NCBI GenBank assembly: GCA_008501785.1
Contig: QQUD01000948.1
Location: forward strand, 1 to 17,900
DNA: 17,900 bases
Reading direction: 5' to 3'
Source of the DNA: Chloroflexota bacterium
GTDB taxonomy: Bacteria; Chloroflexota; Anaerolineae; Promineifilales; Promineifilaceae
A program made the position numbers and the translations under genes. Every line of letters begins with the position of its first letter. The first letter of the stretch is position 1. This document shows positions 16 through 17,888 of this stretch, piece after piece. Under the pieces are notes generated by a model, which was not told the origin of the DNA, did not search any database, and was given only the letters and a program-made list of their open reading frames with translations.

Positions 16-798
16 GTGGGAGAAAAAGAAGCCGCTGTTGCCGATCTCGTCAAAAGTTGGCAGCCCGATTTCATCATCACGACTGGCGATAATAATTATC
101 CCATAGGCAGCGCCGACACGATTGACGGCAATGTTGGGCAAGTTTACAGCAGCTATATTTATCCGTACACCGGTGTTTACTCGTCCACTGAGACAGTTAA
201 TCGGTTTTTCCCGTCCCTGGGCAATCATGACTGGGATTCAGCAGACGCACAGGGATATTTGAATTATTTTCCCATCGATAGCAGCTCTGCAAACACCGGC
301 AGCAGCCAAAATGAACGGTATTATGATTTTGTGCAAGGGCCAGTCCATTTTTTTGTGATTGACAGCGACAGGCGCGAGCCGGATGGCAACGACAAAAGTT
401 CTATCCAGGCAGCATGGCTGCAAACGCAGCTGGCTGCTTCGCAAACGCCCTGGCAATTTGGCTATTTTCATCATCCGCCATACTCATCTGGTTGGCATGG
501 ATCATCAAGATTCATGCGATGGCCGTTTGCCGAATGGGGAGCCGACGCAGTTTTTTCGGGCCACGAACACAGCTATGAGCGCATCTTGCGAGACAATATT
601 CCTTACTTTGTGAATGGATCGGGTGGGCAAGGTTTGCGCATGTTTTTGTTGCCAATTACAGGTAGCAAGGCGCGTTACAATGACGACAATGGGGCAATGA
701 GGGTGCAGGCAACGGAAACGGCCGTTACCTTCCATTTTTTCTCTATCGCCAATGGGGGAGAACTAATCGATTCCTATGCAATTTCAATAAGTGATTGA
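16..798 (+). CDS. Metallophosphoesterase (calcineurin-like / purple acid phosphatase-like), 5' part broken or outside the window
   Basis: Encodes the bulk of a calcineurin-like metallophosphoesterase, a two-metal hydrolase of phosphate esters. Visible metal motifs from the GTG at 16: GDNNYP (residues 24-29), GNHD (69-72), the HH of YFHHPPYSS (152-153) and GHEHSYER (182-189). The C-terminal 60 or so residues look like a beta-rich tail. The GTG start is formal only. The same frame continues upstream as GGT GAT TAG GGC ATT GTG (1-18), reading G-D-stop-G-I-V, and family members have an aromatic residue where the TAG is (GDYG or GDFG). The real gene therefore begins before the window, and its first metal-binding Asp lies ahead of an in-frame stop at 7-9. 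A product starting at 16 would lack that ligand and is unlikely to be active. No ribosome binding site precedes 16. The gene is followed by another broken gene, so decay is plausible; a base-call error is the alternative. Family call is firm; intactness is doubtful. Confidence 0.8.
   Translation: MGEKEAAVADLVKSWQPDFIITTGDNNYPIGSADTIDGNVGQVYSSYIYPYTGVYSSTETVNRFFPSLGNHDWDSADAQGYLNYFPIDSSSANTGSSQNERYYDFVQGPVHFFVIDSDRREPDGNDKSSIQAAWLQTQLAASQTPWQFGYFHHPPYSSGWHGSSRFMRWPFAEWGADAVFSGHEHSYERILRDNIPYFVNGSGGQGLRMFLLPITGSKARYNDDNGAMRVQATETAVTFHFFSIANGGELIDSYAISISD
717..726. repeat. First copy of the iterated palindrome AACGGCCGTT (position list for the window)
   Basis: Perfect 10-bp palindrome inside the phosphoesterase gene, read as Thr-Ala-Val. 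Perfect copies start at 717, 1486, 2183, 6573, 7331, 7355, 8054, 9212, 10376, 11095, 11848, 12739, 14123, 15359 and 16196. Copies keeping the ACGGCCGT core but differing at an end base start at 1021, 3152, 8266, 10363, 14306, 16777, 16895 and 17853. Looser cousins (AACGGCCG followed by CT or AT) start at 10609, 10818 and 15920. Eleven perfect copies lie in genes: seven read as TAV, three as NGR, one as RPL. Four lie between genes. Confidence 0.9.
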
Positions 799-939
799 AA
801 TTTTCAGAGTCTTCATCAACAAATAGTGTGCTTGACAACTCAATTACAATTTACCAACTCAATATCATTGCGTGTATGGTCTCTGACGCGATGATGGCTA
901 CAGCGGATATAAATAAGGAACGGATGAAGAAAGCGGATT

Positions 940-1128
940 TTGTCCGTTGCTGATTTTGAGATGGATTTAGGTGTTAGCCCAGACAATTTGGAAGGAATGA
1001 CTTTTGGACCACCGCTGCCAGACGGCCGTTTACCGCTCATCGTCGTTAGTGATAACAACTTCAATCCAAATCAGATCACACAATTTATTGTTGTTGCAAT
1101 CGAATTAGAGTCAGCATCAGGCGATTAA
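940..1128 (+). pseudogene. C-terminal remnant of an esterase-like phytase-family protein
   Basis: The 62-residue frame contains NLEGMTFGPPLPDGR followed by a VVSDNNF block, then ends ITQFIVVAIEL. This is the hallmark C-terminus of the esterase-like-activity-of-phytase family (secreted beta-propeller proteins of several hundred residues), so most of the protein is missing. The frame can only start at a TTG (940) with no ribosome binding site. Just upstream, a second frame (about 869-945) reads an Asp/Lys-rich stretch that would fit the preceding family segment. This suggests a frameshift near 925-945 in addition to a large 5' deletion. It lies 142 bp after the damaged phosphoesterase; both could be remains of one phosphate-ester utilisation locus. 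It ends 2 bp before the terminator hairpin. Confidence 0.6.
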
Positions 1129-1130
1129 AC

Positions 1131-1166
1131 AAAAAAAGACCATCGGGCTGTCCCGATGGTCTTTTT
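1131..1166. terminator. Bidirectional intrinsic terminator
   Basis: Perfect 10-bp stem GACCATCGGG (1138-1147) / CCCGATGGTC (1152-1161) with loop CTGT. It is flanked by A7 on the left (1131-1137) and T5 on the right (1162-1166). It works as a U-tract hairpin in both directions. It separates the plus-strand phytase remnant from the minus-strand ABC operon, whose ATPase gene stops at 1178. Confidence 0.9.
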
Positions 1167-1177
1167 AAAAGCCTTAT

Positions 1178-2254
1178 TTAATCAGCTACCACAAACAAAC
1201 ATTCATCCCAGAATTTCACCTGAACAGATTCCCCTTCTGCGAAAATGGTGGTGCGCCGTGGGTCGTTTTCAACCAACGAGAGGAGCTGTCCGTTGACCTC
1301 AACATCATATTCAACGGTGCTGCCCAAATAGGCAGATTGACGCACAATGCCGGAAACATGTGCGCCTTCAATTGGATTGATCAGGGCCATTTCTGGGCGA
1401 ATCACCAGCGTCACCTTTTGCCCGACCTGAAAATCTTGGCTGGCAGCAGACACGTCTAACAAAACGCCTAAGGATTCAACAGATAAACGGCCGTTATCCA
1501 CCCCCCGCACAACCCCATCCACAAAATTAGCGCGACCAATAAAGTCAGCCACAAATCGGCTTGTTGGCCGACGATAAATTTCTGTCGGCGGCCCCACCTG
1601 TTCAATGCGTCCCTCATTCATCACCACAATGCGGTCCGACATTGTCATCGCTTCTGTTTGATCGTGTGTCACATACATGCTGGTGATACCAATTTGCTGA
1701 TGAATGCGGCGAATTTCTGAGCGCATTTGCTCGCGCAGTTTGGCATCGAGATTGGACAGCGGCTCATCCATCAGCAGCACTTTTGGCTCCATCACCAAAG
1801 CACGCGCCAACGCCACCCGCTGCTGCTGTCCACCAGAAAGCTGTTCGGGAGTGCGACCACCAAATCCCGGCAGTTCGACCAGATCAAGTACGCGGTCTAC
1901 CCGTTGGGTGATTTCCGCTTTTGGCAGCCGTTTTACATTCAATCCATAGGCAATATTTTCAAAGACAGTCAGGTGCGGAAAGATGGCGTAGCTTTGAAAC
2001 ACCATCGACATATCACGCTTGTGGGGCGGTAGATTGTTGATGACTTTGTTGTCTAGGCGCAGATCGCCAGCCGTCGGGAATTCGAAGCCTGCTACCATGC
2101 GCAGCGTCGTTGTTTTGCCGCAGCCTGAGGGTCCTAACAGCGTTACAAACTCGCCTTTTTCGATCTGAAGGGAGACATCGTCAACGGCCGTTACCTCACC
2201 CGTCCCCCCACGGCTTTCAAAAATTTTATACACATTCTCCAAAACCAGATACAT
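1178..2254 (-). CDS. ABC importer ATP-binding subunit (FbpC/PotA type, with TOBE domain)
   Basis: The 358-residue ATPase energises the permease encoded just upstream. Walker A GPSGCGKTT (41-49), Q-loop MVFQSYAIFPHLT (84-96), signature LSGGQQQR (139-146), Walker B LLMDEPLSNLD (160-170) and switch His (T-H-D, H197) are all intact. The C-terminal third (about 235-355) has the beta-rich TOBE pattern with VTLVIRPE, typical of spermidine, iron(III), sugar and phosphonate importers. It is the last gene of the three-gene operon, 4 bp after the permease stop. Its ribosome binding site AGGAG (2268 down to 2264) lies inside the permease's last codons, so translation is probably coupled. The strong bidirectional terminator follows. 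Sequence alone cannot separate iron(III) from 2-aminoethylphosphonate or polyamine substrates. Confidence 0.93.
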   Translation of the reverse strand: MYLVLENVYKIFESRGGTGEVTAVDDVSLQIEKGEFVTLLGPSGCGKTTTLRMVAGFEFPTAGDLRLDNKVINNLPPHKRDMSMVFQSYAIFPHLTVFENIAYGLNVKRLPKAEITQRVDRVLDLVELPGFGGRTPEQLSGGQQQRVALARALVMEPKVLLMDEPLSNLDAKLREQMRSEIRRIHQQIGITSMYVTHDQTEAMTMSDRIVVMNEGRIEQVGPPTEIYRRPTSRFVADFIGRANFVDGVVRGVDNGRLSVESLGVLLDVSAASQDFQVGQKVTLVIRPEMALINPIEGAHVSGIVRQSAYLGSTVEYDVEVNGQLLSLVENDPRRTTIFAEGESVQVKFWDECLFVVAD

Positions 2255-2258
2255 GTGG

Positions 2259-4526
2259 TTATGCTCCTAAGGTTAAATCAACATCGCCGCGACCACTCAT
2301 GACTCGTGTGGTCACCACATATAAAATGCCAATCGCAATCAGCACCAGCACAATAATTGTTGAAGCATAGGCGGCTGCAAAGCTAATGCCCCCTTGCTCC
2401 CACTCACTCAAAATCGAAGCGGTCACAATTCGCCAGCGTGGACTCACCAAAAAGATAATGGCAGATAGGCTGGTCATATGTCGCGTAAAGCTAAAAATCA
2501 AGCCGGCTAATAAAGCGGGCGTAATCAGCGGCAGCGTCACTTTACGGAAGGTGTATTGGGCATCGGCCCCCAGGTTGTTGGATGCTTCTTCGATGCTGGG
2601 GTCAATTTGTTGCAGCGCCGCCACACCGGCCCGTACCGAAGCTGGCAAACTGCGCACCGCAAACGCGGCAATAATGATGTAAGGTGTACCAATGATTGCC
2701 AACGGTTCGCCAATAAATGCGAGCGTCCCGCCCAACCCAAGCAAAACAATTCCCATTATCTGTTTTATGCTACCAGACAATCGCCCGATGATGACGACTG
2801 CTAAAAACAGATAAATGATCATCGTGAAGGGTTGGGGCAGCTGGAAGAAGACTTGAATATAGTCGGCAAACTGGGTAATTGCATTGCCCCAAAATGGGCT
2901 GTCAAGGGTTAAGCTAAAACGCGAGATGGGACGCGCAATGAGTCGGATTAAGTCGAACATCATCAGGTAGAAGCCCATCCCGGCCAATATTTTGGCGGAA
3001 GCCCGGTCGCGCAGCATGAACAGGAAATAAGCAGCAACGGCAATGAAACCACCACCCAGCAGGTACATAAGCCCAATTTCGCCTAGCACCATTTGCAGTA
3101 AACGCAGCCCAACGGCGATGGTGGTACCGAAGAAAAGGGTGGTGAGTTGAATACGGCCGTTTTCAAACAACGTCCTTACCATAAACAACGCCATCACAAT
3201 AAACAACCCCACCACTAAAAACCAGGGCGGCGTCACAAACGAAATAATAAACCCAATCCCTAAAATCGTGCCTGGTACGCCAGCGCCCAAATTCGAGCCA
3301 AAATCTAACACATCTTTGCCGCTAAACGTTTTGCGCACCACCAGGAAGGCAATACCCATCCCCAAAAATCCGGCAATCGGCGTCGCCATGATGCTCAAAA
3401 ACGTCGTGTCCAAAATCGCTTCAATGCCACGACTCAACATGAGCTTCCAATGATCCAGCGACGGCGTAAAGTCAATGCCCCACACCTTGCTAAACGACCC
3501 CACCACAATCGAGGCGTACATCAACACAATCAGTGCTGTTGTGGCATACGTCACAAAAATAAATGACCAGCGGGTAATTGGCTCTTTCACCATGATATGA
3601 CCGCTGGCTGGTTTGCCAGTCACTGAAATATAGGATCGGCGATTCACCCAATACCGCTGCAAAATAAACACAATCAGCGTCGGCAGCAGCAGCACAAACG
3701 CCAGTGTCGATGCCTTTTGATAATCAAATTCACCGGCAACCGCCAGAAAAATCTGCGCGGCCAACACATTCACATTACCAGAAATGAGCAGCGGGTTCCC
3801 TAAATCGGCCAACGACTCGACAAACAGCAGCAAAAAAGAGCCAGCTAACCCAGGAATAAGCAGCGGCAAGGTAATTGTCCGAAATATATGGAACTTAGAC
3901 GCGCCTAAACTGTGCGCCGCTTCTTCCATTGAAGGATGCAGCCTTTCTAGCATGGCCCGAATAATCAAATAGGCGACCGAGAAAAAAGTAAGCACTTGCA
4001 CAAAAACCAGGCCATCCATGCCATAAACATCATTGGTTCCCAGCGAAAATTCCATGCCTAAAAAACGTCGTGTGATTAAACCATTTCGCCCAAACAGCAG
4101 AATGGTAGACATGGCAATGGCAAATGGAGGCGAAACGGTTGGTACCAGCGCCAAGATATGCACCCAACGCTGGCCCGGTGGGTTACAACGCACCATCGTG
4201 TATGCAAAAATAAAGCCGAGGGTCGTACCCCCGGTAGCAGTGAGTAAGCCTAATTTAAGCGTGTTCCAAAAAGCGCCCCACGCCGTTGATGCATAATAAG
4301 GGTCAATGTACCGGGCAAAATATTCTAAACTTAAAACGCCATCTCTGTCGACAAAACCGCGTCCCACCACCCGCAATATCGGGGAGAAAACGAGGATGAC
4401 CATAAAAATACCGGCAACGAGTAAGCCAATAAGCAAAACTGGGTCACGGGCAATCAGCGCATATTCTCGATAACGACGTGTTAATTTTGTTCGCCAGGAA
4501 GATTGTGAAGGGGATGTTGCTGCCAT
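2259..4526 (-). CDS. Fused two-domain ABC importer permease (FbpB type) with a large membrane insert
   Basis: This 755-residue membrane protein carries both permease halves of an iron(III)/2-aminoethylphosphonate-type importer. Half one spans residues about 30-290, with its EAA loop EEAAHSLGASKFHIFRT (201-217) followed by LPLLIPG. Half two begins near 320, with its EAA loop EEASNNLGADAQYTFRK (646-662) followed by LPLITP. FbpB-type permeases are usually about 550 residues. Here a block of roughly 170-180 residues (about 432-610), rich in hydrophobic helices, splits half two between GVPGTILGIGFIISF (417-431) and the IIIAAFAVRSLP segment (617-628), which are normally close together. The start ATG at 4526 gives a charged N-terminus before the first helix. 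A compound hairpin lies between it and the binding-protein gene upstream. The permease call is firm; the insert boundaries come from memory of the family. Confidence 0.9.
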   Translation of the reverse strand: MAATSPSQSSWRTKLTRRYREYALIARDPVLLIGLLVAGIFMVILVFSPILRVVGRGFVDRDGVLSLEYFARYIDPYYASTAWGAFWNTLKLGLLTATGGTTLGFIFAYTMVRCNPPGQRWVHILALVPTVSPPFAIAMSTILLFGRNGLITRRFLGMEFSLGTNDVYGMDGLVFVQVLTFFSVAYLIIRAMLERLHPSMEEAAHSLGASKFHIFRTITLPLLIPGLAGSFLLLFVESLADLGNPLLISGNVNVLAAQIFLAVAGEFDYQKASTLAFVLLLPTLIVFILQRYWVNRRSYISVTGKPASGHIMVKEPITRWSFIFVTYATTALIVLMYASIVVGSFSKVWGIDFTPSLDHWKLMLSRGIEAILDTTFLSIMATPIAGFLGMGIAFLVVRKTFSGKDVLDFGSNLGAGVPGTILGIGFIISFVTPPWFLVVGLFIVMALFMVRTLFENGRIQLTTLFFGTTIAVGLRLLQMVLGEIGLMYLLGGGFIAVAAYFLFMLRDRASAKILAGMGFYLMMFDLIRLIARPISRFSLTLDSPFWGNAITQFADYIQVFFQLPQPFTMIIYLFLAVVIIGRLSGSIKQIMGIVLLGLGGTLAFIGEPLAIIGTPYIIIAAFAVRSLPASVRAGVAALQQIDPSIEEASNNLGADAQYTFRKVTLPLITPALLAGLIFSFTRHMTSLSAIIFLVSPRWRIVTASILSEWEQGGISFAAAYASTIIVLVLIAIGILYVVTTRVMSGRGDVDLTLGA

Positions 4527-4539
4527 CTTTGCTCGTCTT

Positions 4540-4585
4540 AACCTCCCGGAGGTGTGGCATTTATGCCTCGCATCTCCGGGAGGTT
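4540..4585. repeat. AACCTCCCGGAG hairpin element, copy 1 (inside the importer operon)
   Basis: The left arm AACCTCCCGGAG (4540-4551) pairs perfectly with CTCCGGGAGGTT (4574-4585). The interior folds further, with GGCAT (4556-4560) pairing to ATGCC (4563-4567). It lies in the 73-bp gap between the binding-protein gene and the permease gene. There is no T-run, so it may be a processing or stabilising hairpin that sets a higher level of binding protein, as is common in importer operons. The same 12-mer arms recur at 15283-15315. Confidence 0.8.
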
Positions 4586-4599
4586 GGCAATCTACTAAT

Positions 4600-5634
4600 T
4601 TATTGCTTTAGATCATCTGCGCCTTGAATCTCGTTAGAGAAGCGATCTACATTGGCTTTTTTGTTGTCTCCAGCCCATTGGAAATCGTAGTCAATCAAAT
4701 TGACTTCCAACAACTCTGGATGGGAAAGCTCAACGCCACCAACGGTTGGTGCTTGATACGCTTTGTAAGTGGGTCCTAATGCCTGTGCGCCAGGGGTTAA
4801 GGCCCAGTCATACCATTTTTGTGCTGCATCGAGGTGTTGGGCACCGGCAACAATGGCCTGTCCACCGACTTCGTATCCGGTTCCTTCTTCGGTGAAGGTG
4901 AGAACGAGCGGCAGTCCAGCGTCAATTTGCTTAACGATGTCGTGCGAGAAAACGATACCCACAGCAGCTTCACCAGCGCCAACAAACTTGGCAGGAGCGG
5001 AACCACTCTTGGTAAATTGCAAAACTTGCCCTGCATATTTTTCCAGGTATTCCCAGCCTGCGTCTTCACCCATGAGTTGTAAGACTGTGGCCATGGCGGT
5101 GTATGATGTACCGGATGTAGACGGATGCGCGACTAACAACTGGCCTTCAAATTCTGGCCTGAGCAAGTCGTCCCACGATGTGGGTGCTTCAACGCCAGGA
5201 TTCGCTGCCAGCCAATCTGCATTGGTGGCAAAGCCGAGGGAACCCAGGTAAATGCCTGACCAATAATTGTCTTTATCACGATAAAGGTCTTGATTCAGCA
5301 AATCGTCTGCATTGGGGGATTCGTATTGCTGGAATAGACCTTCTTGTGCACCGGAGATGTAGGTGTCGATGGGGCCACCCCACATGATGTCGAACTGTGG
5401 ATTTTCACGTTCGGCTTCGAGTCGAGCAAGCGCTTCACCAGTGGACATACGCACATAGTTGACGGTAATGCCAAACTCTTTTTCGAACTCTTGCTTCATA
5501 CCTTCGCACCACTCTTCCTGTGGCACACAAAGCAAGTTTAGTTCGGTGCTTTCCTGTTCACCTTGGCAGGCTACGAGCAACATTGGAACAACTATCATGG
5601 CCATCAAAAAGACAACCATTTTCTTAACTGACAT
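4600..5634 (-). CDS. ABC importer substrate-binding lipoprotein (iron(III)/2-aminoethylphosphonate type)
   Basis: The 344-residue extracellular solute-binding protein is first in the operon. It begins with a lysine-bearing signal peptide and a lipobox L-V-A-C (C23), so it should be lipid-anchored. The mature start has the paired cysteines of LLCVPQEEWCEGMK (C36, C43), and a HPSTSGTSYTA segment (170-180) in the hinge region typical of AfuA/PhnS-like binding proteins. The adjacent Tyr-Tyr iron-ligand pair of classic FbpA was not seen, so iron is not assured. The start is supported by AAGGAGG (5646 down to 5640), five bases before the ATG. It is followed by the hairpin element at 4540-4585, then the permease and ATPase genes, which complete the importer. 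Confidence 0.9.
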   Translation of the reverse strand: MSVKKMVVFLMAMIVVPMLLVACQGEQESTELNLLCVPQEEWCEGMKQEFEKEFGITVNYVRMSTGEALARLEAERENPQFDIMWGGPIDTYISGAQEGLFQQYESPNADDLLNQDLYRDKDNYWSGIYLGSLGFATNADWLAANPGVEAPTSWDDLLRPEFEGQLLVAHPSTSGTSYTAMATVLQLMGEDAGWEYLEKYAGQVLQFTKSGSAPAKFVGAGEAAVGIVFSHDIVKQIDAGLPLVLTFTEEGTGYEVGGQAIVAGAQHLDAAQKWYDWALTPGAQALGPTYKAYQAPTVGGVELSHPELLEVNLIDYDFQWAGDNKKANVDRFSNEIQGADDLKQ

Positions 5635-5646
5635 GTTTTCCTCCTT

Positions 5647-5935
5647 GAATTGATGATCTGAAAACGTAAATAACCATCCAGGTACAAAGGGGGGAATAAG
5701 GTTACGGGCGTTTTCAGGTGAACTTTACCTTTTGCCCAATACAAAAGATGAAAGCACATCTTACTCTATACATTTGTTATAAGCAAATGGAATAATTTAT
5801 TGTGGAAAATATACAAATTTAACTATAGTAAAGTTGTTTTGTTAGATAGACTCTAAGGGTTTTTAACACGAAAGCATCCTGTTTTAGAGAGAAAATCCCT
5901 TAAAGTCTGAATACTTAGCTATCAGGTGTAAATGA
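5647..5935. other. AT-rich intergenic region upstream of the importer operon
   Basis: The region carries the leader and presumably the promoter of the minus-strand importer operon, and the 3' flank of the receiver gene ending at 5936. A small inverted repeat CATTTG (5771-5776) / CAAATG (5784-5789) with a 7-base spacer could be an operator. On the minus strand TTGCTT, 17 bases, then TAAGAT is a weak promoter candidate overlapping it. The G-run near 5690 (tacaaaggggggaa) recurs near 10491. No RNA gene or riboswitch fold was recognised. Confidence 0.3.
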
Positions 5936-6325
5936 TTATGCAGGCTGTAAAATGGACTGTGCTTCAAGTAATTGGTTGATGTTTTCTAACAACAATTGCA
6001 CAGCCATTGGCTTGAACATGTAGCTGTTTGCGCCTGCTTGCAGGCCTTCATTTTCAGCTTCTAAAGTTGTTTTGCCACTCAGCATAATAATTGGCAGATC
6101 GACGGTTTGTGGGTGGTTACGAAGTTTTTTGCACAGAGTGATACCATCCATGCGCGGCATCATCACATCTAAAATCATGGCATCTGGTTTTGCGGTTTGA
6201 ATTTTTTCTAGCGCATCAACTCCGTCAAAGGCTTCGTTTACCTGAAAGCCGTTAAAATTGAGCAACATACCTAACATTCGACGCGTGTCTGCTTGATCGT
6301 CTACTATCAAAATCAATGGGTTCAT
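5936..6325 (-). CDS. Stand-alone CheY-like response regulator receiver (copy 1)
   Basis: The 129-residue single-domain receiver has no output domain. The acidic pair D9-D10, phospho-acceptor D53 (ILDVMMPRMDG), S83 (MLSGKT) and K105 (FKP) are all present, so it can be phosphorylated. AGGAG sits seven bases before the ATG and fixes the start. It is 56% identical, gap-free and equal in length to the receiver at 7369-7758; the two lie on the minus strand on either side of the V4R gene. No kinase lies beside it, so it probably takes phosphate from a hybrid kinase elsewhere. Confidence 0.93.
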   Translation of the reverse strand: MNPLILIVDDQADTRRMLGMLLNFNGFQVNEAFDGVDALEKIQTAKPDAMILDVMMPRMDGITLCKKLRNHPQTVDLPIIMLSGKTTLEAENEGLQAGANSYMFKPMAVQLLLENINQLLEAQSILQPA

Positions 6326-6572
6326 GGGTTGGCTCCTATGGATACCCAGAAGTGAATTAAATTATTTTACTTCTAGCTGATGGTCATAGTATATCTGAGA
6401 TTGTGGATAGAATGAGTGGGCCAAAAGTACTTGTAAAAGGAATTTTATTTTTGGGAGCAATATGGGGTATGGAAAATTAGAAGTTTTACGCAAAGACGCG
6501 ACGTTGCAAAATGGAAGACCTTAGCATCTTTGTGCCTTTGATTTCGATAGTGTCTGAAATTTTCTGGAGGGT

Positions 6573-6582
6573 AACGGCCGTT
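6573..6582. repeat. Intergenic iterated palindrome inside a larger hairpin
   Basis: AACGGCCGTT flanked by GGAGGGT on the left and TCCCCCCTCC on the right, so the fold can extend to about 6566-6592 with a three-C bulge. It lies upstream of the V4R gene. Confidence 0.7.
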
Positions 6583-7328: not shown

Positions 7329-7366
7329 TAAACGGCCGTTTCAAACTTCCTCAAAACGGCCGTTAC
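7329..7366. repeat. Paired palindromes between convergent genes, possible bidirectional terminator
   Basis: Two perfect AACGGCCGTT words (7331-7340 and 7355-7364) lie 14 bases apart in the 45-bp gap between the ends of the V4R gene (7323) and the receiver gene (7369). Flanks GTAA on the left and TTAC on the right extend them into one larger hairpin with a loop around CAAACTTCCTC. Each word can also fold alone. Confidence 0.7.
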
Positions 7367-7368
7367 TT

Positions 7369-8800: not shown

Positions 8801-8830
8801 TGTGTTCATTTGCGTTCATCCGTGTTCAAA
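8801..8830 (+). repeat. Imperfect 10-bp tandem repeat, three units
   Basis: Units TGTGTTCATT, TGCGTTCATC and CGTGTTCAAA stand exactly head to tail upstream of the small membrane protein gene. GTTCA is constant apart from its position in the unit. It is outside any supported gene once the downstream start at 8903 is used. Confidence 0.7.
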
Positions 8831-8902
8831 TTCTTATCTCCAAATTCAGGTTATAATCTAAGCAAACATGCATTGGTTTTGAACCAAAATGGAGAACATG
8901 AA

Positions 8903-10578: not shown

Positions 10579-11232
10579 TTATCCTATTAGTTGATGTTCA
10601 TACGCATAAACGGCCGCTTGAATACGATCTCGCAGCCCCAACCTGCTTAAAATATTGGAAACATGATTTTTGACCGTGCCTTCACTCACAACCAGTTCCT
10701 TAGCAATCTCGCGGTTGGTGGCGCCAGTGGCGATCAACTTTAGTACCTCAAGTTCGCGCTCTGTGAGATCATGCGCTGGTGGGGCAGGCTTGGGTGGCGT
10801 TGGGGACGTCGTGTCCAAACGGCCGATTAGCTTTCCGGCAATGCTTGGCGCAAGTTGATAAATGCCGGTATGTGCCAGCCGCACCGCCTGTGCCAGTTCT
10901 GCTGCCGGAATATCTTTCAGCAGGTATCCCACTGCACCAGCCCGCAGCGATTTGACGATGTACTCTTCATCATCAAAAGTCGTCAGCATCAGTACCTGGC
11001 AGTTCGGCAGCTGGCGGCGAATTTGTTGCGTGGCCGTAATACCGTCCATGATAGGCATGCGAATATCCATGAGGATGATGTCAGGGTTGAGAGAAACGGC
11101 CGTTTTCACCGCATCCTCACCATTCACCGCCTGCCCAATCACCTGCACGCCATCCTGAATATCCAGCAGCGACGCAATGCCCTCACGTACGAGCCGTTGA
11201 TCGTCCACCACCAAAACCGAAATGTTGCTCAT
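10579..11232 (-). CDS. NarL/FixJ-family response regulator
   Basis: The 217-residue transcriptional regulator has a receiver domain (1-120) with D10-D11, phospho-acceptor D56 (ILMDIRMP), T84 (MLTTFD) and K105 (LLKD). A proline-rich linker (about 138-152, SPTPPKPAPP) follows, then a LuxR-type helix-turn-helix (about 155-212) with LTERELEVLKLIATGATNRE and GTVKNHVSNILSRL. It follows the kinase gene by 39 bp and is its cognate partner. The divergent MacB-like transporter starting at 12883 is the natural target. Only a weak ribosome binding site precedes the ATG; a 22-bp palindrome lies just upstream. Confidence 0.95.
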   Translation of the reverse strand: MSNISVLVVDDQRLVREGIASLLDIQDGVQVIGQAVNGEDAVKTAVSLNPDIILMDIRMPIMDGITATQQIRRQLPNCQVLMLTTFDDEEYIVKSLRAGAVGYLLKDIPAAELAQAVRLAHTGIYQLAPSIAGKLIGRLDTTSPTPPKPAPPAHDLTERELEVLKLIATGATNREIAKELVVSEGTVKNHVSNILSRLGLRDRIQAAVYAYEHQLIG

Positions 11233-11271: not shown

Positions 11272-12546
11272 TTACGCGGTGTCCCTCTTAAACAGTTGAG
11301 CCGGATTTTTCGGCACAATCACCATCATGCGCGTGCCGTGCGGGGAAACGTGGCTCAAATCCATTTGCCCCTGCACCAATTCTAGACGTTCTCGAATCCC
11401 CTGCAAGCCATAGCTGTGCGGAGAAGCCAGTTTTGTTTCTAATTGTGTAAAATCTAAACCAACACCATTGTCTTCGAGCAAAAGCTGTGCGTGATTTGCT
11501 TCCAGAGATACTTTAAGTCGAACTTGATTTGCTTGGGCATGTTTTTGTACATTGGTGAGTCCTTCTTGTGCAACCCGAAACAGCGTGGTCAGGACAGGGT
11601 AAGCAAATCCAGCTTCTTGGCCCTCCACTTGCAGCGCCACGTCCAGCGCTTGATCATCAATCCCCTGAACTAATTCGTGTAGCGAGTTGGACAATGAGAA
11701 AGCTGCATCCTTTTCACGCAGTGTGCGCACGGAGTTGCGCACGTCGAGCAGCGCTTCATGTGCGGCGATTTTGGCGTTTTGTACGGCTTCGTCGGCTTCG
11801 GCAGGGTTGCGATTGCGGAAGGTGAGTGCTTTTTCGAGCTGGATGTTAACGGCCGTTAAATGATGCCCCAAACTATCATGAATATCACGCGCCAGCCGGT
11901 TCCGCTCCTCCGCAACCGCCAGTTCACCCACTTGCGCCGCATACAGTTGCAGCTTTTCGTGCGACACCTTCAGTTCAGCAAACAGCCGCCGCGTCTGTTC
12001 TTGTCGCTTTTCATTTGCCGCAATGATAAAAGCAATAATATGAATGAACACCAGCGTTAATGAAAGCAGCACGATGCCAACATTTGCCAGCGGGTCTGAA
12101 ATCCAATTTATCTCGGAACGTCCCAAATTGTAGACAGTTAACAACCAAAAGAAGCTGCCGGTGGCGATACTGACTTTGCTGCCAATGGAAAAGAAGATGG
12201 CGAACGGAATGATTGAGTACATGGATGCCGCAATCGAGGTGCAGTCGATTTGGATGATACCCCAAATAACGGCGGTTCTCGCCAACAACAAAAACATCAC
12301 ATGCGGCATCGTCAATGTCTCATGTTCGATTTCGTATCGTTCAATGGCTAATAGCAAAATGAGCAGCGCCGCCATCCACGTCGCATTGCGAAAGGGGGTC
12401 GAACTATTGCACACGTTGATGGCATTAATGTATACCATCACCGCCCCAATCAGAGAAATGTAGGCAATAATAAATCCCCAGCGCAAGACGCTTTGCCCGC
12501 TGACTGATGGAATCATCCACTGCATGAATTGATTTTTAATTCTCAT
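11272..12546 (-). CDS. Membrane histidine kinase of the DesK/NarX (HisKA_3) family
   Basis: The 424-residue sensor kinase has an N-terminal membrane part with about six hydrophobic helices (residues 21-40, 57-67, 82-100, 108-122, 125-139, 156-178). A coiled stretch (179-210) follows, then the HisKA_3 box AEERNRLARDIHDSLGHHL with phospho-acceptor H223. The ATPase domain shows N332 (EGLTN), the G1 box ED-N-G-V-G-L-D (358-365) and YGLQGIRERL (379-388). No large extracellular loop is visible, so it probably senses membrane state or its transporter. The frame is open to an ATG at 12684, but those extra 46 residues read through short tandem repeats and look artificial, so MRIKNQF at 12546 is chosen. 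No clear ribosome binding site. It is co-transcribed with the regulator. Confidence 0.9.
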   Translation of the reverse strand: MRIKNQFMQWMIPSVSGQSVLRWGFIIAYISLIGAVMVYINAINVCNSSTPFRNATWMAALLILLLAIERYEIEHETLTMPHVMFLLLARTAVIWGIIQIDCTSIAASMYSIIPFAIFFSIGSKVSIATGSFFWLLTVYNLGRSEINWISDPLANVGIVLLSLTLVFIHIIAFIIAANEKRQEQTRRLFAELKVSHEKLQLYAAQVGELAVAEERNRLARDIHDSLGHHLTAVNIQLEKALTFRNRNPAEADEAVQNAKIAAHEALLDVRNSVRTLREKDAAFSLSNSLHELVQGIDDQALDVALQVEGQEAGFAYPVLTTLFRVAQEGLTNVQKHAQANQVRLKVSLEANHAQLLLEDNGVGLDFTQLETKLASPHSYGLQGIRERLELVQGQMDLSHVSPHGTRMMVIVPKNPAQLFKRDTA

Positions 12547-12609
12547 AGCTATTGAATGGGTATATTGGTGTAATGGTGTATTGGTGTATTTGATATCAAG
12601 CAATAATCC

Positions 12610-12641
12610 AATATACCAATATACGAATATACAAATATACA
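12610..12641. repeat. 8-bp tandem repeat, four units
   Basis: AATATACC, AATATACG, AATATACA, AATATACA in perfect register, 60 bp or so upstream of the chosen kinase start. Confidence 0.75.
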
Positions 12642-12738
12642 AAACTCTCCTCTCTCCCAGCATAACACACCCGCCATTCTGCAAACAATATGCCAGGTGA
12701 GCGATTCTTTTTAGCTAGTTGGCATAGGTCGGTTGGCT

Positions 12739-12748
12739 AACGGCCGTT
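12739..12748. repeat. Intergenic iterated palindrome in the divergent control region
   Basis: AACGGCCGTT, followed by TCCC, about 135 bp upstream of the chosen permease start and about 190 bp upstream of the kinase start. Confidence 0.8.
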
Positions 12749-12882
12749 TCCCACAATAGGCTACTCGGCACATGTGTAAAAATGCACAAAGCCGTAAACT
12801 GGGGAAGGTAGCTTTCAGGTATCAGCTATCAGCCGTCAGCAACAATCAGACGACAAGACGAAAGACTACGAGACAAACAACT

Positions 12883-15270
12883 ATGATCCGAACCCGTTGG
12901 TATAAAGTAATGAGCGATTTATGGAGCAACCGGATGCGTACCCTGGTGGTAGCCGTTGCGGTTGCGGTGGGGGTTTACGCAATTGGTGGCGTGATTACGA
13001 CCCAGACCCTGATGCTGCGTGAATTTCACAGTGATCAAGACGATGCCCTGGTTGCTTCTGCCATTCTGTACACCTTTCCATTTGATGAAGACTTGGCCGA
13101 ACGTATGTCAGAACTCCCCGGTGTTGCCGCTGCTGAAGGACGGTACAGCATCAGTTCGCGCATCATCACCGCTCCCGGTGAGTGGAAAGATATGGACATC
13201 ATCTCTGTATCTGATTTTAGCAACATGCAGGTTGACAAATTTTTGTATGTGGATGGGGCCTGGCCGACTGCCAAAGACGAAATCATGCTCGAATGGATGG
13301 GCACCGACTATATTGAAGCAGGGATCGGCGATACGATCCTGATTGAATTGGGTGATGGCACGCAAAAGGAATTGACCATTTCTGGTCTGGCTCATTATCC
13401 ACAGCGCCCTAGTCCAGCCATTATGGGCAACACTTATGGCTTTGTTTCACCAGATACGATGCGCTATTTAGGCGAATTGGACCAGTTCACCGAACTCCAT
13501 TTTATTGCCGTCGGAGAAGACCCAGACAAAGAAACGGTTGAACAGGTTGTTGAGGTGGTTTCAAAACAAATTGAAGACAGCGGTCGCGTTGTGCTAAACA
13601 CGTACATTCTGGGTGAATTTATCATCGAGTCCATTATCAATACCGTTGCGCTCATTCTTTCTACTTTTGGCTGGATGACGCTGTTTTTGTCTGGGTTTCT
13701 GGTTGTCAACACCATTTCAGCACTGATTACGCAGCAGATTAACCAGATTGGCATCATGAAGCTGGTTGGAGCCAGTCGGCTGCAAATGGTTGCCATGTAC
13801 ATCACGATGGTGTTGGTGTATGGCGTGATAGCGTTTTCGGTTGGCATTCCCATGTCTGTGGCAACGGCGCGTTATTTGATGGTCAACTTGATTGAAGTGA
13901 CCGTCAACATGCGCCCGGAAAGTTATGCAATCCCGCTGTGGGTGTATGCAGTGATGGTTGGCGTAGGGGTAATCATCCCTGTATTTGCGGCGCTGCTGCC
14001 TGTGATGCAAGGCACACGCCTCACCACACGCAAAGCACTGAATGGCACTGGGATGGCATCTGCCACTAGCGGGGATACTGTTTTTGAAAAGTTGTTAGGG
14101 TTGGTTCCACGGAAGCGGTTGCAACGGCCGTTACTGCTCGCCATCCGCAACACCCTCCGTCACAAAAGCCGCCTGCTGCGTACTTTAATGGTCCTCATTT
14201 TGGGAACGGCGCTGTTCATTGCCGTTATTTCCGTACGTTTGTCGGTCGACAGCACACAGGCTGACTTTCTTGCCTATCATCAATACGATGTGCAGCTGCG
14301 CATGGAACGGCCGTATCGCATCACCCAGCTCGAAAACACAGCACTCGAACTCCCCGAAGTAGTCGCCGTCGAAAGTTGGGGCAGAGATTCTGCTACCATC
14401 ATGCGTCCCGATGGCAGTGAGAGTAATGGGTACATCGTTTTCGGACTGCCTGAAGAGACCAAATTGGTCACACCTGTTGTCACCGAAGGGCGCTGGCTGC
14501 GTCCCGATGATACAAACGCCATCGTTCTCAATGCCACGCTGCTCAACGACGAAACCGATATTCGGGTAGGTGACGAGATTACGCTTGATTTCGCAGGGCG
14601 TGAGCAGACCTGGCAGGTGGTGGGTTTTGTGGGCACTGATGCGCAAGGCCCAAATATTTATATGAATTTCGACACATTCGCTTACGAATTGCGCATGCCT
14701 GGACAAGCCAACAGCTTACAGGTCATTTCCAATCAACATGATGCACAGTCACAGGCAAATTTGGAATCAAAATTGTTCCATCACTTTGAAAACAGCGATT
14801 TTGAAGTGAGCGGCAGCCACACAACCCAAACGCTAAACAGTCAAAATGAGTTCATGTTTGACACCATTGTCGCCTTCCTTATTTTGATGGCGGTTTTGCT
14901 GGCGGCAGTGGGCAGCCTGGGCTTGTCTACCACAATGGGCATCAACATGCTAGAGCGCATCCGCGAGATTGGCGTGCTGCGTGCGATTGGGGCGTCCAAC
15001 GTTGCCGTGCGCCGCATCGTGCTGCTCGAAGGGCTGGTGATTGGCTCGATTAGCTGGGTGATTGGCTTTTTCCTGTCGTTCCCGGTTGCCAAATTTATGA
15101 GCGCCCAAATTGGTGTGGCTCTGCTGGATATGCCGTTAACTTACACCTACGCATATGGTGCGGCAATCATCTGGCTCTTTGTGATACTTGGCCTTGCCGT
15201 AGCTGCCAGCCTTGGCCCTGCCCAAAGTGCCGTTAAGCTGACGATTCGAGAGGTATTGGCTTACGAGTAA
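12883..15270 (+). CDS. MacB/FtsX-type ABC transporter permease
   Basis: The 795-residue inner-membrane protein belongs to the type VII (mechanotransmission) ABC class. It has an N-terminal helix (21-41), a periplasmic domain (about 45-245), and a first FtsX domain with helices near 250-280, 303-325 and 350-375, including QIGIMKLVGASRLQ (288-301). A repeat of this layout follows: helix 433-452, periplasmic domain 455-655, then helices 662-685, 713-735 and 758-778 with REIGVLRAIGASN (694-706). The frame is open to an ATG at 12772, but those 37 residues read a repeat-rich leader. ATG at 12883 (MIRTRWYKVMSDLW) matches family N-termini. The ribosome binding site is weak. Two ATPase genes follow; no MacA-like adaptor is present. 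Substrate unknown: lipoproteins, peptides or envelope stress signals are the family options. Confidence 0.92.
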   Translation: MIRTRWYKVMSDLWSNRMRTLVVAVAVAVGVYAIGGVITTQTLMLREFHSDQDDALVASAILYTFPFDEDLAERMSELPGVAAAEGRYSISSRIITAPGEWKDMDIISVSDFSNMQVDKFLYVDGAWPTAKDEIMLEWMGTDYIEAGIGDTILIELGDGTQKELTISGLAHYPQRPSPAIMGNTYGFVSPDTMRYLGELDQFTELHFIAVGEDPDKETVEQVVEVVSKQIEDSGRVVLNTYILGEFIIESIINTVALILSTFGWMTLFLSGFLVVNTISALITQQINQIGIMKLVGASRLQMVAMYITMVLVYGVIAFSVGIPMSVATARYLMVNLIEVTVNMRPESYAIPLWVYAVMVGVGVIIPVFAALLPVMQGTRLTTRKALNGTGMASATSGDTVFEKLLGLVPRKRLQRPLLLAIRNTLRHKSRLLRTLMVLILGTALFIAVISVRLSVDSTQADFLAYHQYDVQLRMERPYRITQLENTALELPEVVAVESWGRDSATIMRPDGSESNGYIVFGLPEETKLVTPVVTEGRWLRPDDTNAIVLNATLLNDETDIRVGDEITLDFAGREQTWQVVGFVGTDAQGPNIYMNFDTFAYELRMPGQANSLQVISNQHDAQSQANLESKLFHHFENSDFEVSGSHTTQTLNSQNEFMFDTIVAFLILMAVLLAAVGSLGLSTTMGINMLERIREIGVLRAIGASNVAVRRIVLLEGLVIGSISWVIGFFLSFPVAKFMSAQIGVALLDMPLTYTYAYGAAIIWLFVILGLAVAASLGPAQSAVKLTIREVLAYE

Positions 15271-15332: not shown

Positions 15333-16070
15333 ATGATTAAACAACTATTTCGGTCAGAAACGGCCGTTTCTACCCACACAACCGGCCCCCTCATCAACCT
15401 GCGTGATGTCAAAAAGGCATACCAGACACCGGCTGGTGACTTTTTTGCGCTGAAGAGGATTGATTTACAAGTTGAGCAGGGTGAATTCGTAGCCATGCTG
15501 GGCAAATCTGGTGCAGGTAAATCGACTTTGATTAACATGATGACCGGCATTGATGCGCCTACCGGTGGTGAAATTATGATTGGCGGTCAGGCCGTGCACC
15601 ACATGAGCGAAGCCCAAATCACCAACTGGCGTGGGCGTAACGTAGGCGTCATCTTTCAGTTTTTTCAGCTCATGCCCATGCTCACCTGTGCCCAAAATGT
15701 GATGCTGCCCATGGATTTTGCCAACCGCTACAAGACACCCAAAGAACGTTACGAGCGTGCCGCTTATTTGTTGGAGCAGGTCGAAATTCCTGAACAGGCA
15801 GACAAACTGCCATCGGCTGTGTCTGGTGGTCAGCGCCAACGCGTGGCAATTGCGCGGGCGTTGGCGAATGATCCCGATTTTCTCGCCGCTGATGAGCCAA
15901 CCGGCAGCCTAGACTCAAAAACGGCCGATGCAGTGTTTGGTGTGTTTGAAAAGCTGGTCGATGAAGGCAAAACGATTTTTATGGCGACGCATGACCATGA
16001 GTTAGCGTCACGAGTGTCGCGGGTGATGCATATTGCTGATGGAAAGATTAAAGAGAACAATGAATTGTGA
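15333..16070 (+). CDS. LolD/MacB-type ABC ATPase (copy 1)
   Basis: The 245-residue ATPase partners the permease just upstream. Walker [10 protein letters not shown] (57-65), the Q-loop within [10 protein letters not shown] (106-115), signature VSGGQRQR (163-170), Walker [13 protein letters not shown] (183-194) and switch H220 are intact. The first 20 residues are not conserved and contain the palindrome-encoded S-E-T-A-V. The last codons (N-N-E-L-stop) lie inside the left arm of an inverted repeat that begins near 16059, so the native C-terminus may have been replaced by repeat sequence. No strong ribosome binding site; the hairpin at 15283-15315 intervenes. The following gene is a paralogue. 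Confidence 0.93.
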
Positions 16071-16143
16071 ATAATTAATAATGAATTGTGAAGTGGGGTG
16101 GTTTCATTCACAGTTCACAATTCGTTATTCACAATTCATTATT
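16059..16143. repeat. Inverted-repeat element between the two ATPase genes
   Basis: AATAATGAATTGTGAA (16077-16092) is matched by a perfect 16-bp inverted copy at 16128-16143. The left arm is itself doubled (AATGAATTGTGAA at 16059-16071 and again at 16080-16092), and the right arm holds a second half-copy (TTCACAATTCGTTATT, 16115-16130). The first ATPase stop codon (16068-16070) lies within it. A related single arm occurs at 10525-10544. It has the size and AT-rich form of a small non-coding repeat, without a transposase. Confidence 0.7.
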
Positions 16144-16159
16144 TCTTCGGAGATATTGA

Positions 16160-16930
16160 ATGTTACTTGATTGGAAACGAATACGATTTGGCGAAAACGG
16201 CCGTTCCACCCTCTCCCCCGCCATCTACCAAACCGTGCCTGCTGACGGCATGATTGATTTGCGCGGTATTGAGAAGGCATATGAAACCGACGCTGGCCCA
16301 TTTTTAGCCCTCAAAGACATTGACTTAAAAGTGGGTGAGGGTGAATTTGTGGCGGTAGTTGGTAAATCTGGCAGTGGCAAATCAACCTTGATCAATATGT
16401 TTACCGGCATTGACCATCCCACCAAAGGTGAAGTGATTGTGGCCAACACCCCTATTCGCCAGCTCGACGAAGGGCAAATGGCTGAATGGCGCGGCAAGCA
16501 CATGGGCATCATTTTTCAATTTTTTCAACTGCTGCCTACGCTCACCATCATCGAAAATGTAATGATTCCGATGGACTTGGCCGACCTGTACGACCTCGAT
16601 GAGCGATATGATCGTGCCATGCATTTGCTGGAACAGATGCAAATGGCTGACGATGCCCACAAATTCCCCCGCGCCGTTTCCGGTGGTCAGCAGCAGCGTG
16701 CTGCCATCGCCCGTGCGCTTGCCAATGACCCGCCGATTTTGGTTGCTGACGAACCTACAGGGAATTTGGATTCGAAAACGGCCGTAACCATCTTCGACCT
16801 CTTCGCCTCCCTGGTAGACAACGGCAAAACCATCCTCATGGTGACGCACGACAACGATCTCGCCAACCAGGCCGGACGCAAAGTGACAATTGCAGACGGC
16901 CGTATTGTAAACGAGGTCGTGCGTCGTTGA
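16160..16930 (+). CDS. LolD/MacB-type ABC ATPase (copy 2)
   Basis: The 256-residue paralogue of the ATPase before it has Walker [10 protein letters not shown] (68-76), a Q-loop within [10 protein letters not shown] (117-126), signature VSGGQQQR (173-180), Walker [13 protein letters not shown] (193-204) and switch H230. CGGAG stands seven bases before the ATG. The N-terminal 30 residues differ from copy 1 and include palindrome-encoded E-N-G-R-S. The 3' end (from 16788) has a second copy at 17746-17888. With copy 1 it may form a heterodimeric motor for the single double-size permease, or serve another permease. Confidence 0.93.
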
Positions 16931-16943
16931 GCCGGTGCATCTA

Positions 16944-16958
16944 TGTTATAATTTAAAC
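16944..16958 (+). promoter_or_regulatory. Extended -10 promoter giving a leaderless transcript
   Basis: TGTTATAAT (16944-16952) is a perfect extended -10 element. A start site about seven bases after it falls on the A of the ATG at 16959, so the mRNA would have essentially no 5' leader. That agrees with the lack of a ribosome binding site. The best upstream match, TTGAGC (16927-16932), is only 14 bases away and overlaps the ATPase stop. Confidence 0.55.
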
Positions 16959-17180
16959 ATGGATGCATCAGATGCGCAGGCATATGTTGGGCGATGGCAA
17001 GCAGTCTCAAAACTCAAACAGTTAGAATCCCATCCAGTTTCGCCTACCGAAAATTGGCGACGGCTAAACGCGATTAAACGGCGTGCTGCTCGCCTGGGTA
17101 TCACACGGAAAGATGACGACGGGGAAATGGAAATCTACTTGCTGTGGGCCAAACTAAAGGCAAACTATGCCCCAAATTGA
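16959..17180 (+). CDS. Small protein of unknown function paired with a nucleotidyltransferase
   Basis: The 73-residue protein is highly charged and mostly helical by composition (VGRWQAVSKLKQLE, NWRRLNAIKRRAARLG, EMEIYLLWAKLKANY), with no cysteine and no membrane segment. I do not recognise a family. The frame could begin at GTG 16935, but the extended -10 element overlaps that stretch, so ATG 16959 is chosen. Its stop overlaps the nucleotidyltransferase start by 14 bp, which indicates translational coupling and a joint function. The basic helix (KRRAARLG) would suit nucleic-acid or partner binding. An antitoxin role is inferred only from position, and it does not resemble the winged-helix antitoxin AbiEi. 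Confidence 0.65.
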   Translation: MDASDAQAYVGRWQAVSKLKQLESHPVSPTENWRRLNAIKRRAARLGITRKDDDGEMEIYLLWAKLKANYAPN

Positions 17181-17742
17181 ACAGCAAAACGCATTCCATG
17201 ATCCACTTGAAGCGTTTGGAAAGTTATTATCCCGCTTTGGCGATCAGGGTGTTGTGATTGGCGGGATTGCAGTGAGTCTTTTGGGAGAAGCTCGATTCAC
17301 GGAGGACCTGGATGCAATGGTCTTGCTTTCCATAGAAGATATCCCTCGTTTTTTGATGGCAGCCCAACAAGAAGGAATTGAACCACGCATTTCAGATGCA
17401 GAAGTTTTTGCACGGCAAAATCGGGTTTTGCTCTTACGTCATTCCCTCTCTCAAACAGATATAGATATTTCGCTTGGTATTTTGCCATTTGAGCAGGAAA
17501 TGGTTGAAAGAAGTATGGTTTACAAGGTGGATGATTCGTTGCAAATCCGTTTGCCAACACCTGAAGATTTGATCATCATGAAAGCGGTTGCCCATCGCCC
17601 CAAAGACCTGTTGGACATTCAGGGAATTATTCAAAGCCATCCTAATCTAGATCGAGAGCGCATTCAAAATTGGGTTTCTCAATTTGCAGAACTCTTAGAA
17701 AATCCAGAAATTTGGGAAGATATAGCTAAAATGCTTTTTTGA
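17167..17742 (+). CDS. Nucleotidyltransferase of the AbiEii/MNT toxin-like superfamily
   Basis: The 191-residue protein has the polymerase-beta-like nucleotidyltransferase pattern: GGIAVSLLGEARFTEDLDAMV (G32-G33, R43, T45, metal ligands D47 and D49), a third acidic strand TDIDISLG (D98, D100), then LPTPEDLIIMKAVAHRPKDLLDI (K139, R144, D147, D150). This combination is typical of nucleotidyltransferases found in toxin-antitoxin and phage-defence pairs, which transfer nucleotides to tRNA or protein. AAAGG lies six bases before the ATG inside the preceding gene. No transposase or phage gene is nearby. The pair interrupts the end of the ABC transporter operon and is flanked by duplicated ATPase sequence, as expected for an acquired cassette. 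Catalytic residues look intact; target unknown. Confidence 0.8.
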   Translation: MPQIEQQNAFHDPLEAFGKLLSRFGDQGVVIGGIAVSLLGEARFTEDLDAMVLLSIEDIPRFLMAAQQEGIEPRISDAEVFARQNRVLLLRHSLSQTDIDISLGILPFEQEMVERSMVYKVDDSLQIRLPTPEDLIIMKAVAHRPKDLLDIQGIIQSHPNLDRERIQNWVSQFAELLENPEIWEDIAKMLF

Positions 17743-17745
17743 TTT

Positions 17746-17888
17746 CCATCTTCGACCTCTTCGCCTCCCTGGTAGACAACGGCAAAACCATCCTCATGGT
17801 CACACACGACAACGATCTCGCCCCCCAGGCCGGCCGCACAGTGACACTTAGCGACGGCCGTATTGTGAACGACGTTGTGCGCAGTTAA
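17746..17888 (+). pseudogene. Decayed copy of the ATPase 3' end
   Basis: This stretch aligns without gaps to 16788-16930, the last 48 codons of the second ATPase, with 16 mismatches in 143 (about 89%). The first 55 bases are identical, then divergence rises. It still reads in frame ([14 protein letters not shown] through MVTHDNDLA to a TAA at 17886), but it lacks the Walker motifs and any start. It begins 4 bp after the nucleotidyltransferase stop. Confidence 0.9.

Follow-up and report, generated by a model that had tools for sequence, protein, structure and literature searches.

A highly iterated palindrome with a CGGCCG core in an order of Chloroflexota

The window, as we call the whole stretch of DNA analysed here, is 17.9 kb of contig QQUD01000948.1 from a Chloroflexota bacterium. 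The element under study is a palindromic word that recurs in it: 15 perfect copies of the 10-mer AACGGCCGTT, the first at 717 and the last at 16196, and 23 copies of the 8-bp unit ACGGCCGT, the first at 718 and the last at 17854. The word constitutes a highly iterated palindrome (HIP) system outside cyanobacteria, with a core of its own, in an order of Chloroflexota. Throughout the genomes of the window's relatives it greatly exceeds what Markov models and codon use predict, occurs in genes and between them, has a strict core and is conserved in position; the shared core has one exception, the genome G318, whose core is GCCGGC. The copies are probably selected recognition sites of a putative host DNA factor, a function that we infer. 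The known precedent, HIP1, was described in 1995; to our knowledge it has no agreed function and has been treated as cyanobacterial.

The word in the window and in related genomes

An order-3 Markov model of the window predicts 0.07 copies of AACGGCCGTT and 0.56 of ACGGCCGT, and 200 dinucleotide shuffles gave means of 0.01 and 0.22, the observed number being reached by none. In codon-corrected counts the word spells 8 of the 9 TAV tripeptides (0.97 expected), all 6 [YHND]GR tripeptides (0.29 expected) and 3 of the 4 occurrences of xRP[SFYCLW] (0.07 expected), so that the excess in the window does not come from codon use. By crude longest open reading frame (ORF) calls, 17 copies are coding and 6 non-coding. 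The counts given in the preliminary description of this DNA (15 10-mers and 23 copies of the core) are exact, positions included; its spacing range also holds, from 14 bp (the 7331/7355 pair) up to the gap from 2183 to 6573, as does its statement that copies occur in three frames, on both strands and between genes. All copies are given below without strand; the strand of an ORF is given where it is minus.

717 to 726: AACGGCCGTT, in phosphoesterase ORF 16-798
1022 to 1029: ACGGCCGT unit, between genes
1486 to 1495: AACGGCCGTT, in ABC ATPase ORF 1178-2254 (minus)
2183 to 2192: AACGGCCGTT, in ABC ATPase ORF 1178-2254 (minus)
3153 to 3160: ACGGCCGT unit, in permease ORF 2259-4526 (minus)
6573 to 6582: AACGGCCGTT, between genes
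7331 to 7340: AACGGCCGTT, between genes, first member of a pair 14 bp apart
7355 to 7364: AACGGCCGTT, between genes, second member of the pair (partner 7331 to 7340)
8054 to 8063: AACGGCCGTT, close to the 5' end of ORF 8037-8615
8267 to 8274: ACGGCCGT unit, in ORF 8037-8615
9212 to 9221: AACGGCCGTT, 3' end of ORF 8810-9229 (NGR)
10364 to 10371: ACGGCCGT unit, in RlmL-like methyltransferase ORF 9338-10471 (minus)
10376 to 10385: AACGGCCGTT, in RlmL-like methyltransferase ORF 9338-10471 (minus)
11095 to 11104: AACGGCCGTT, in ORF 10579-11232 (minus; response-regulator-like, by eye)
11848 to 11857: AACGGCCGTT, in ORF 11272-12684 (minus; histidine-kinase-like, by eye)
12739 to 12748: AACGGCCGTT, between genes
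14123 to 14132: AACGGCCGTT, in FtsX-like permease ORF 12772-15270
14307 to 14314: ACGGCCGT unit, in FtsX-like permease ORF 12772-15270
15359 to 15368: AACGGCCGTT, close to the 5' end of ORF 15333-16070 (TAV; ABC ATPase by eye)
16196 to 16205: AACGGCCGTT, close to the 5' end of ORF 16160-16930 (NGR; ABC ATPase by eye)
16778 to 16785: ACGGCCGT unit, in ORF 16160-16930 (ABC ATPase by eye)
16896 to 16903: ACGGCCGT unit, in ORF 16160-16930 (ABC ATPase by eye)
17854 to 17861: ACGGCCGT unit, by the window end, outside the listed ORFs

An ATP-binding cassette (ABC) transporter set of ATPase, permease and binding protein occupies 1178-5634 of the window, and ORF 17167-17742 resembles an AbiEii/DUF6036-type nucleotidyltransferase.

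The genome-wide evidence comes from the genomes of relatives, not from the window's own genome. The permease at 2262-4526 has 16 relatives, mostly from Chloroflexota metagenome-assembled genomes (MAGs), the nearest being 83% identical. AACGGCCGTT was counted in the genomes that contain 12 of these 16 loci, with 564 to 3,261 copies in four, 29 in G002 and 0-8 in seven; the permease of G002 is 79% identical to that of the window. The GTDB order of the nearest relative, G001, was represented by 56 genomes. In 29 of them AACGGCCGTT occurs 361-5,060 times; the remainder have 51-149 (6 genomes), 29 (G002) or 4-22 (20 genomes). The reversed word, used as control in the same 56 genomes, gave 0-42 copies (1-42 in the 29 richest), except in G318 (157). 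In a sample of 298 genomes from the class, at least 83 copies were found in 11, all of them from the order of G001, and at most 24 in the others.

Observed and Markov-3 expected numbers of the word in stretches of relatives were 71 and 0.56 for G003, 57 and 0.32 for G311, and 87 and 0.73 for G201, and the word was found in MAGs from several projects (L001, L003, L004, L015). Hence the large excess persists after Markov and codon correction in the window and in its relatives, and judged by the relatives' genomes neither a genome-wide count near the Markov expectation nor an enrichment limited to the window was found. The word is genome-wide and, in the samples searched, confined to one order. 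One MAG of this order bears the label Ardenticatenaceae. Candidate words in other orders (control counts of 135 in G244, and others) were not confirmed in the short stretches fetched. One contig, G319:C1 (L270, 16.8 kb), has no excess of ACGGCCGT though its genome has 3,388 decamers, which may reflect a binning error or an island; it was left out of the pooled counts.

Core, flanks and dialects

The unit ACGGCCGT consists of a strict CGGCCG core in a weaker, symmetric surrounding context, ggNAACGGCCGTTNcc. In 472 kb of pooled sequence there are 631 units against 10.4 expected, and a large excess of ACGGCCGT remains when copies with both outer AA..TT are set aside. Outside the unit the core is near expectation, as obtained by subtraction (G003, 36 against 43; G311, 25 against 25; G201, 145 against 133). 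The unit was found with 0, 1 and 2 mismatches 629, 353 and 2068 times (expected 8.8, 204 and 2072), and the 10-mer 278, 320 and 391 times (expected 0.5, 14.6 and 194). One-off changes at the first base of the unit occur at 2.9 times the expected number (1.41 times in genomes without the word); at three inner positions they occur at 0.72, 0.55 and 1.46 of expectation. Since the inner ratios are similar in genomes without the word (0.71, 0.94 and 2.21), inner near-misses are not enriched. From these mismatch classes it follows that the core is strict and the outer bases are graded.

Left and right flanks, measured apart at 1,430 sites in 20 genomes, agree in profile, and within a genome the one varies independently of the other. 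The base adjoining the unit is A in 0.56 of cases on the left and 0.57 on the right; G takes the third place in 0.45 and 0.43 and the fourth in 0.50 and 0.50. No repeated sequence extends beyond about 5-7 bp on each side of the word. A reading as an RNA hairpin was rejected, as covariation was not supported: symmetric pairs at the first flanking position are in excess in three sets when genomes are pooled (323 against 285, 72 against 60, 158 against 135), and this excess vanishes within genomes (607 against 600.8). At offsets 2-5 the within-genome pairs are 381 against 407, 408 against 436, 516 against 480 and 359 against 380, that is, a weak excess at offset 4 only (z 2.35).

As a side observation, other palindromic hexamers made of G and C only are under-represented in many of the genomes that have the word; in the window six of them were seen once in all against 19.2 expected. 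Such hexamers stand at 0.15 of expectation in phage stretches and at 0.28 in G321 (which has no PF00145 or PF01555 match), and they are hardly avoided in G002, G314 and G315, which are without the word (0.89-0.94). This is a trend, as avoidance is slight in the word genomes G317 (0.79) and G334 (0.84).

Several dialects were found. TCGGCCGA occurs 9,414 times in G309 and 7,668 times in G105 (reversed control 27 and 125), 1,889-2,070 times in G334-G336 and 1,326 times in G159, and GCGGCCGC 25 times against 0.8 expected in 18.7 kb of G188. In G159, G279, G334 and G335, and more weakly in G211 and G332, CGGCCG is enriched with little flank preference. G318 (L127, L279-L281) has switched core, with 24 copies of TGCCGGCA against 2.1 expected in 30 kb and CGGCCG scarce (447 in 4.0 Mb). 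The stretches of G002, G078, G314, G315 and G325 showed none of these words. Genome-wide, CGGCCG outnumbers GCCGGC in 52 of the 56 order genomes, the exceptions being G318, G002, G314 and G315. In a group of six genomes (SH-aLRT, an approximate likelihood ratio branch test, 93; midpoint-rooted) G002 branches first; the other five have the word, and G002 keeps none of 4 word sites of G001. Thus the core CGGCCG is common to most of the order, and the flanking base differs by lineage.

Conservation, placement and viral copies

Conservation was measured on non-redundant sites in 15 genome pairs with 120.9 kb aligned; the rpoB region supplied 12 of the pairs, and because certain genomes appear more than once, the pairs are not all independent. 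The rpoB regions of 40 genomes were fetched and a midpoint-rooted tree was built. Word sites were intact in both genomes in 120 of 186 cases, compared, by the same measure, with a Jaccard value of 0.112 for other 8-mers; by a one-way measure on the same pairs, 8-mers of the same composition were intact in 536 of 2523. G320 and G321 share 17 of 22 words at 80% identity and G001 and G316 12 of 18 at 77%; the lowest values are 8/23 (G305/G306), 5/15 (G174/G324) and 0/2 (L003/L001). In most of 11 pairs of genomes from different flank classes, core positions were shared no more often than in the control (2/10, 2/18, 0/8 and so on); G279/G211 share 7/14, and both of these have little flank preference.

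At sites that are not shared, 42 of 66 differ by at least 3 bases, a number that alignment error in diverged stretches may inflate; in control windows 29% do so and 38% differ by one base. Single-base breaks of the word therefore seldom linger, and this agrees more with selection than with neutral decay or with a one-step ratchet.

Placement was again judged from crude longest-ORF calls. One contig of G201 (260 kb) holds 410 words, at 1.66 per kb in coding and 1.0 per kb in non-coding sequence, roughly even along genes, in all three phases and on both gene strands; in 140 kb of G321 the densities are 1.25 and 0.95 per kb. Gaps below 100 bp are rarer than in random placement (34 against 59 in G201, 9 against 19 in G321). 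Even spacing was rejected, the coefficient of variation of the gaps being 0.97 and 1.16; only close pairs are scarcer. The first four 10-kb bins of the G321 contig contain 1, 5, 4 and 10 words and later bins mostly 15-20. Among ten ORFs of this word-poor part (G321:C11:1-40000; L426, L427) are an NB-ARC gene, genes for type I restriction and one for a serine recombinase, next to Nuo and hydrogenase genes. Part of the stretch may be a recent arrival, and the word may then serve to date horizontal arrivals.

The word also shapes protein sequence. It spells 116 of 121 TAV tripeptides in 155 kb of G201, 69 of 75 in G003 and 32 of 37 in G311, compared with 6 of 13 in 162 kb, mostly rpoB regions, of genomes without it. 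The excess of TAV per kb over these genomes ranges from 2.6-fold in the like-for-like rpoB regions of G320-G322 (8 TAV in 38.6 kb, compared with the 13 in 162 kb) to 11-fold in G003; an initial claim of a ten-fold excess was cut to this range, because the comparison set is mostly rpoB regions.

Viral stretches from IMG/VR were recruited by the word itself and give neither frequencies nor host matches. Among the matches listed, the recruited phage stretches carry the word at a density like that of chromosomes. In one phage scan, the best 45 of 102 stretches have about 0.42 copies per kb or more and the other 57 have less. Of 300 viral stretches of at least 3 kb, 47 pass a simple enrichment test for ACGGCCGT and 4 for TCGGCCGA. 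A claim that phages are denser in the word than their hosts was dropped, as the set is recruited, 57 of 102 are low and only 47 of 300 pass, several sharing a contig. L384 and L472 (GC content 0.52) have 11 copies of TCGGCCGA each and no ACGGCCGT; L384 encodes a phage primase-helicase. Searches of six stretches against PHROGs found phage hallmark genes in four: a weak terminase match in L151, a tape measure gene in L144, genes for a tape measure and an endolysin in L209, and genes for a portal and a head protease in L135. Of the other two, L128 has a DnaC-like loader, and L129 has ParA and FtsK, which resembles the content of plasmids or integrative elements.

Putative function and rival explanations

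We consider that a putative trans-acting host factor would recognise CGGCCG strictly and in double-stranded DNA, most likely acting as an enzyme or as a symmetric dimer, and that its more tolerant reading of the flanks would drift between lineages. Copies would be held by selection as sites of this factor, and where the factor is lost or changes its taste, the sites would decay or a new word would build up. Selection on the sites would explain the conservation, the phage copies and the wholesale loss in G002, and also why single-base breaks are purged and close pairs are scarce. The least certain step is the job of the word. Most likely it would be a docking site or mark, independent of methylation, that serves DNA maintenance (repair, recombination, nuclease control), and any long-lived DNA in these cells, phage included, would profit from a word about every 600-800 bp. 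Of the readings considered, such a mark best accounts for phages and chromosome together. Five points weigh against selected sites of a host factor: no word-reading protein was found among the five families tried; the genomes are mostly MAGs whose completeness is not stated; recruitment by the word biases its density in phage stretches upward; density is uneven in the G321 contig (variance/mean 3.05 per 10 kb); and conservation alone cannot tell selection from a repair process that rewrites the word.

An unlikely alternative is a methylation-linked HIP as proposed by Elhai, in which a methyltransferase for CGGCCG or GGCC and a mismatch-repair ratchet would create and keep the words. Excerpts of Elhai 2015 offer a close parallel in core-plus-flank structure and alternates, and tie HIPs to methyltransferases, with a putative match listed for the highly over-represented words; they also report four HIP1 strains without a CGATCG enzyme. 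Of the 56 order genomes, 26 have PF00145, 40 have PF01555 and 50 have MutL, the last without discriminating word genomes; gaps in MAGs and families outside the survey (PF07669, PF02384) leave room for the model, G321 having at least one type I PF02384 enzyme, seen in its word-poor stretch. Against it, at E <= 1e-8, 9 of the 18 richest genomes are without PF00145, 3 without PF01555 and 2 (G321, G329) without both; G329 is visibly incomplete (a piece of rpoB only and no MutL match), and G321 is not so by those markers. The flank-free G211 and G332 have no match to PF00145, PF01555 or PF02086. Of these three families G321 has only the last (D12), which is known for adenine methylation; this family occurs in 42 of the 56 genomes, including the wordless G002, G314 and G315, and has no match in the word-rich G310 and G322, and the core lacks adenine. 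Where a site is present in one genome of a pair only, near-miss partners occur less often than in the controls, the opposite of a one-step ratchet. Because the word-rich G321 is without PF00145 and PF01555, and 9 of the 18 richest genomes without PF00145, the HIP1 methylation model does not seem to suffice here. As for the roles suggested in the preliminary description, presence and absence in MAGs suggest that a cytosine methyltransferase, with the word as its target, is not required. Two further roles named there, a repair target and a site bound by a DNA protein, are still candidates. The NotI/EagI family (PF12183) has matches in 4 genomes, all with a CGGCCG word (G001 C102, G008 C7, G188 C49 and G004 C390; L410-L413); that in G004 is weak (E 8e-6), with a PF01555 match adjacent. 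None of PF00145, PF01555, PF02086, MutL and the NotI family tracks the word over the 56 genomes, and all were rejected as the factor.

A bias of mutation or repair without methylation, making and remaking words as an unselected by-product, is unlikely too, and we rate it a little lower. It agrees with conservation that follows no gene-specific pattern, with words in phage stretches and with flanks that can switch. It would, however, have to restore eight defined bases against any substitution, and the near-miss deficit at non-shared sites speaks against it; the presumed new arrival in G321 is word-poor, though a slow process gives the same. A special case of selected sites is a Chi-like protection, in which the word would halt or modulate a nuclease acting on DNA ends and phages would carry it to survive. 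The phage copies and a density comparable to that of short Chi words agree with this; known Chi sites, however, are not palindromes and are recognised on a single strand, and we regard the reading as distinctly unlikely. A DNA uptake word, another role in the preliminary description, would account for 1-2 copies per kb, clade-specific dialects and both coding and non-coding copies, and for one-mismatch 10-mers (320) outnumbering exact ones (278), as for the Actinobacillus uptake word in the part of Bakkali 2007 available to us (438, 947 and 2635 copies with 0, 1 and 2 mismatches). The perfect palindrome, its strict core and symmetric context, the phage copies and the sharpness of the 8-bp unit, whose two-mismatch class is at chance, disfavour this role and make it very improbable. 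A codon, peptide, mobile-repeat or assembly artefact can practically be dismissed, given that copies lie in three frames, on both strands and outside genes, and that MAGs from several projects contain the word; repetitive extragenic palindromes (REP) and miniature inverted-repeat transposable elements (MITE) were rejected, as a longer, mostly extragenic unit is expected for them, whereas here there is no longer repeat and copies are coding and non-coding.

An order-wide unmethylated word could act as a code for native DNA, with CGGCCG dialects, a host system favouring DNA that carries the word, copies kept in place, proteins bending to it and phages writing the host dialect; we offer this with much reserve, as rather doubtful. 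A second HIP clade would give the HIP1 puzzle an independent, testable counterpart and permits gene-content association for the reading factor and a direct test of the methylation model. The losses, flank switches, core switch and phages of two flank types are comparative material that HIP1 lacked, and word dialects may help to predict phage hosts. In the open literature searched, which does not cover the wider literature, we found no highly iterated palindrome in Chloroflexi or Chloroflexota, and AACGGCCGTT or ACGGCCGT as a word only in a paper on DNA encryption.

Comparison with known systems

Chi sites are over-represented short words, oriented and strand-specific, that act in DNA-end processing. 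The present word resembles them in being short and over-represented, possibly with a role in DNA-end processing, and differs in its symmetry. EagI reads CGGCCG and NotI reads GCGGCCGC; their family recognises exactly this core with different flanks, and it is not the general factor since it has matches in only 4 of 56 genomes. The DNA uptake sequences (DUS) of Neisseria and uptake signal sequences (USS) of Haemophilus have, like the present word, many short copies and lineage dialects. At the length of the 10-mer, one-mismatch copies of the present word are about as common as exact ones; at that of the 8-bp unit they are fewer (353 against 629). Unlike it, according to the same part of Bakkali 2007, uptake words are not palindromes. 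There, GGCGATCGCC of Synechocystis has 5648, 1830 and 5212 copies with 0, 1 and 2 mismatches. As these words are 10-mers, a claim that the present word is sharper than HIP1 was dropped, since it is not sharper at that length, and the uptake word was rated slightly higher for it; the 10-mer mismatch profile alone cannot separate a HIP from an uptake word.

The comparison with HIP1 made in the preliminary description is borne out by the fixed 6-bp core, lineage flanks, positional conservation, loss (G002) and phage copies. HIP1 (GCGATCGC) and the present word are both 8-bp palindromes with a 6-bp core and about one copy per kb, and the cyanobacterial alternates (TCGATCGA) keep the core and change the flanks, as in Chloroflexota, as far as the excerpted sources go. 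HIP1 likewise has lineages without the word, its upkeep is ascribed to selection (argued by Xu and others, as given in an excerpt of PMC6604393), and Nostoc phage A1 (L409) carries 27 copies of GCGATCGC in 50 kb against 0.57 expected. HIP1 proper was rejected as an identification, as neither its sequence nor its cyanobacterial origin was found here. The present word differs from it in core (CGGCCG, not CGATCG) and phylum, in not being coextensive with a cytosine methyltransferase, and in having flank-free and GCCGGC dialects within one order.

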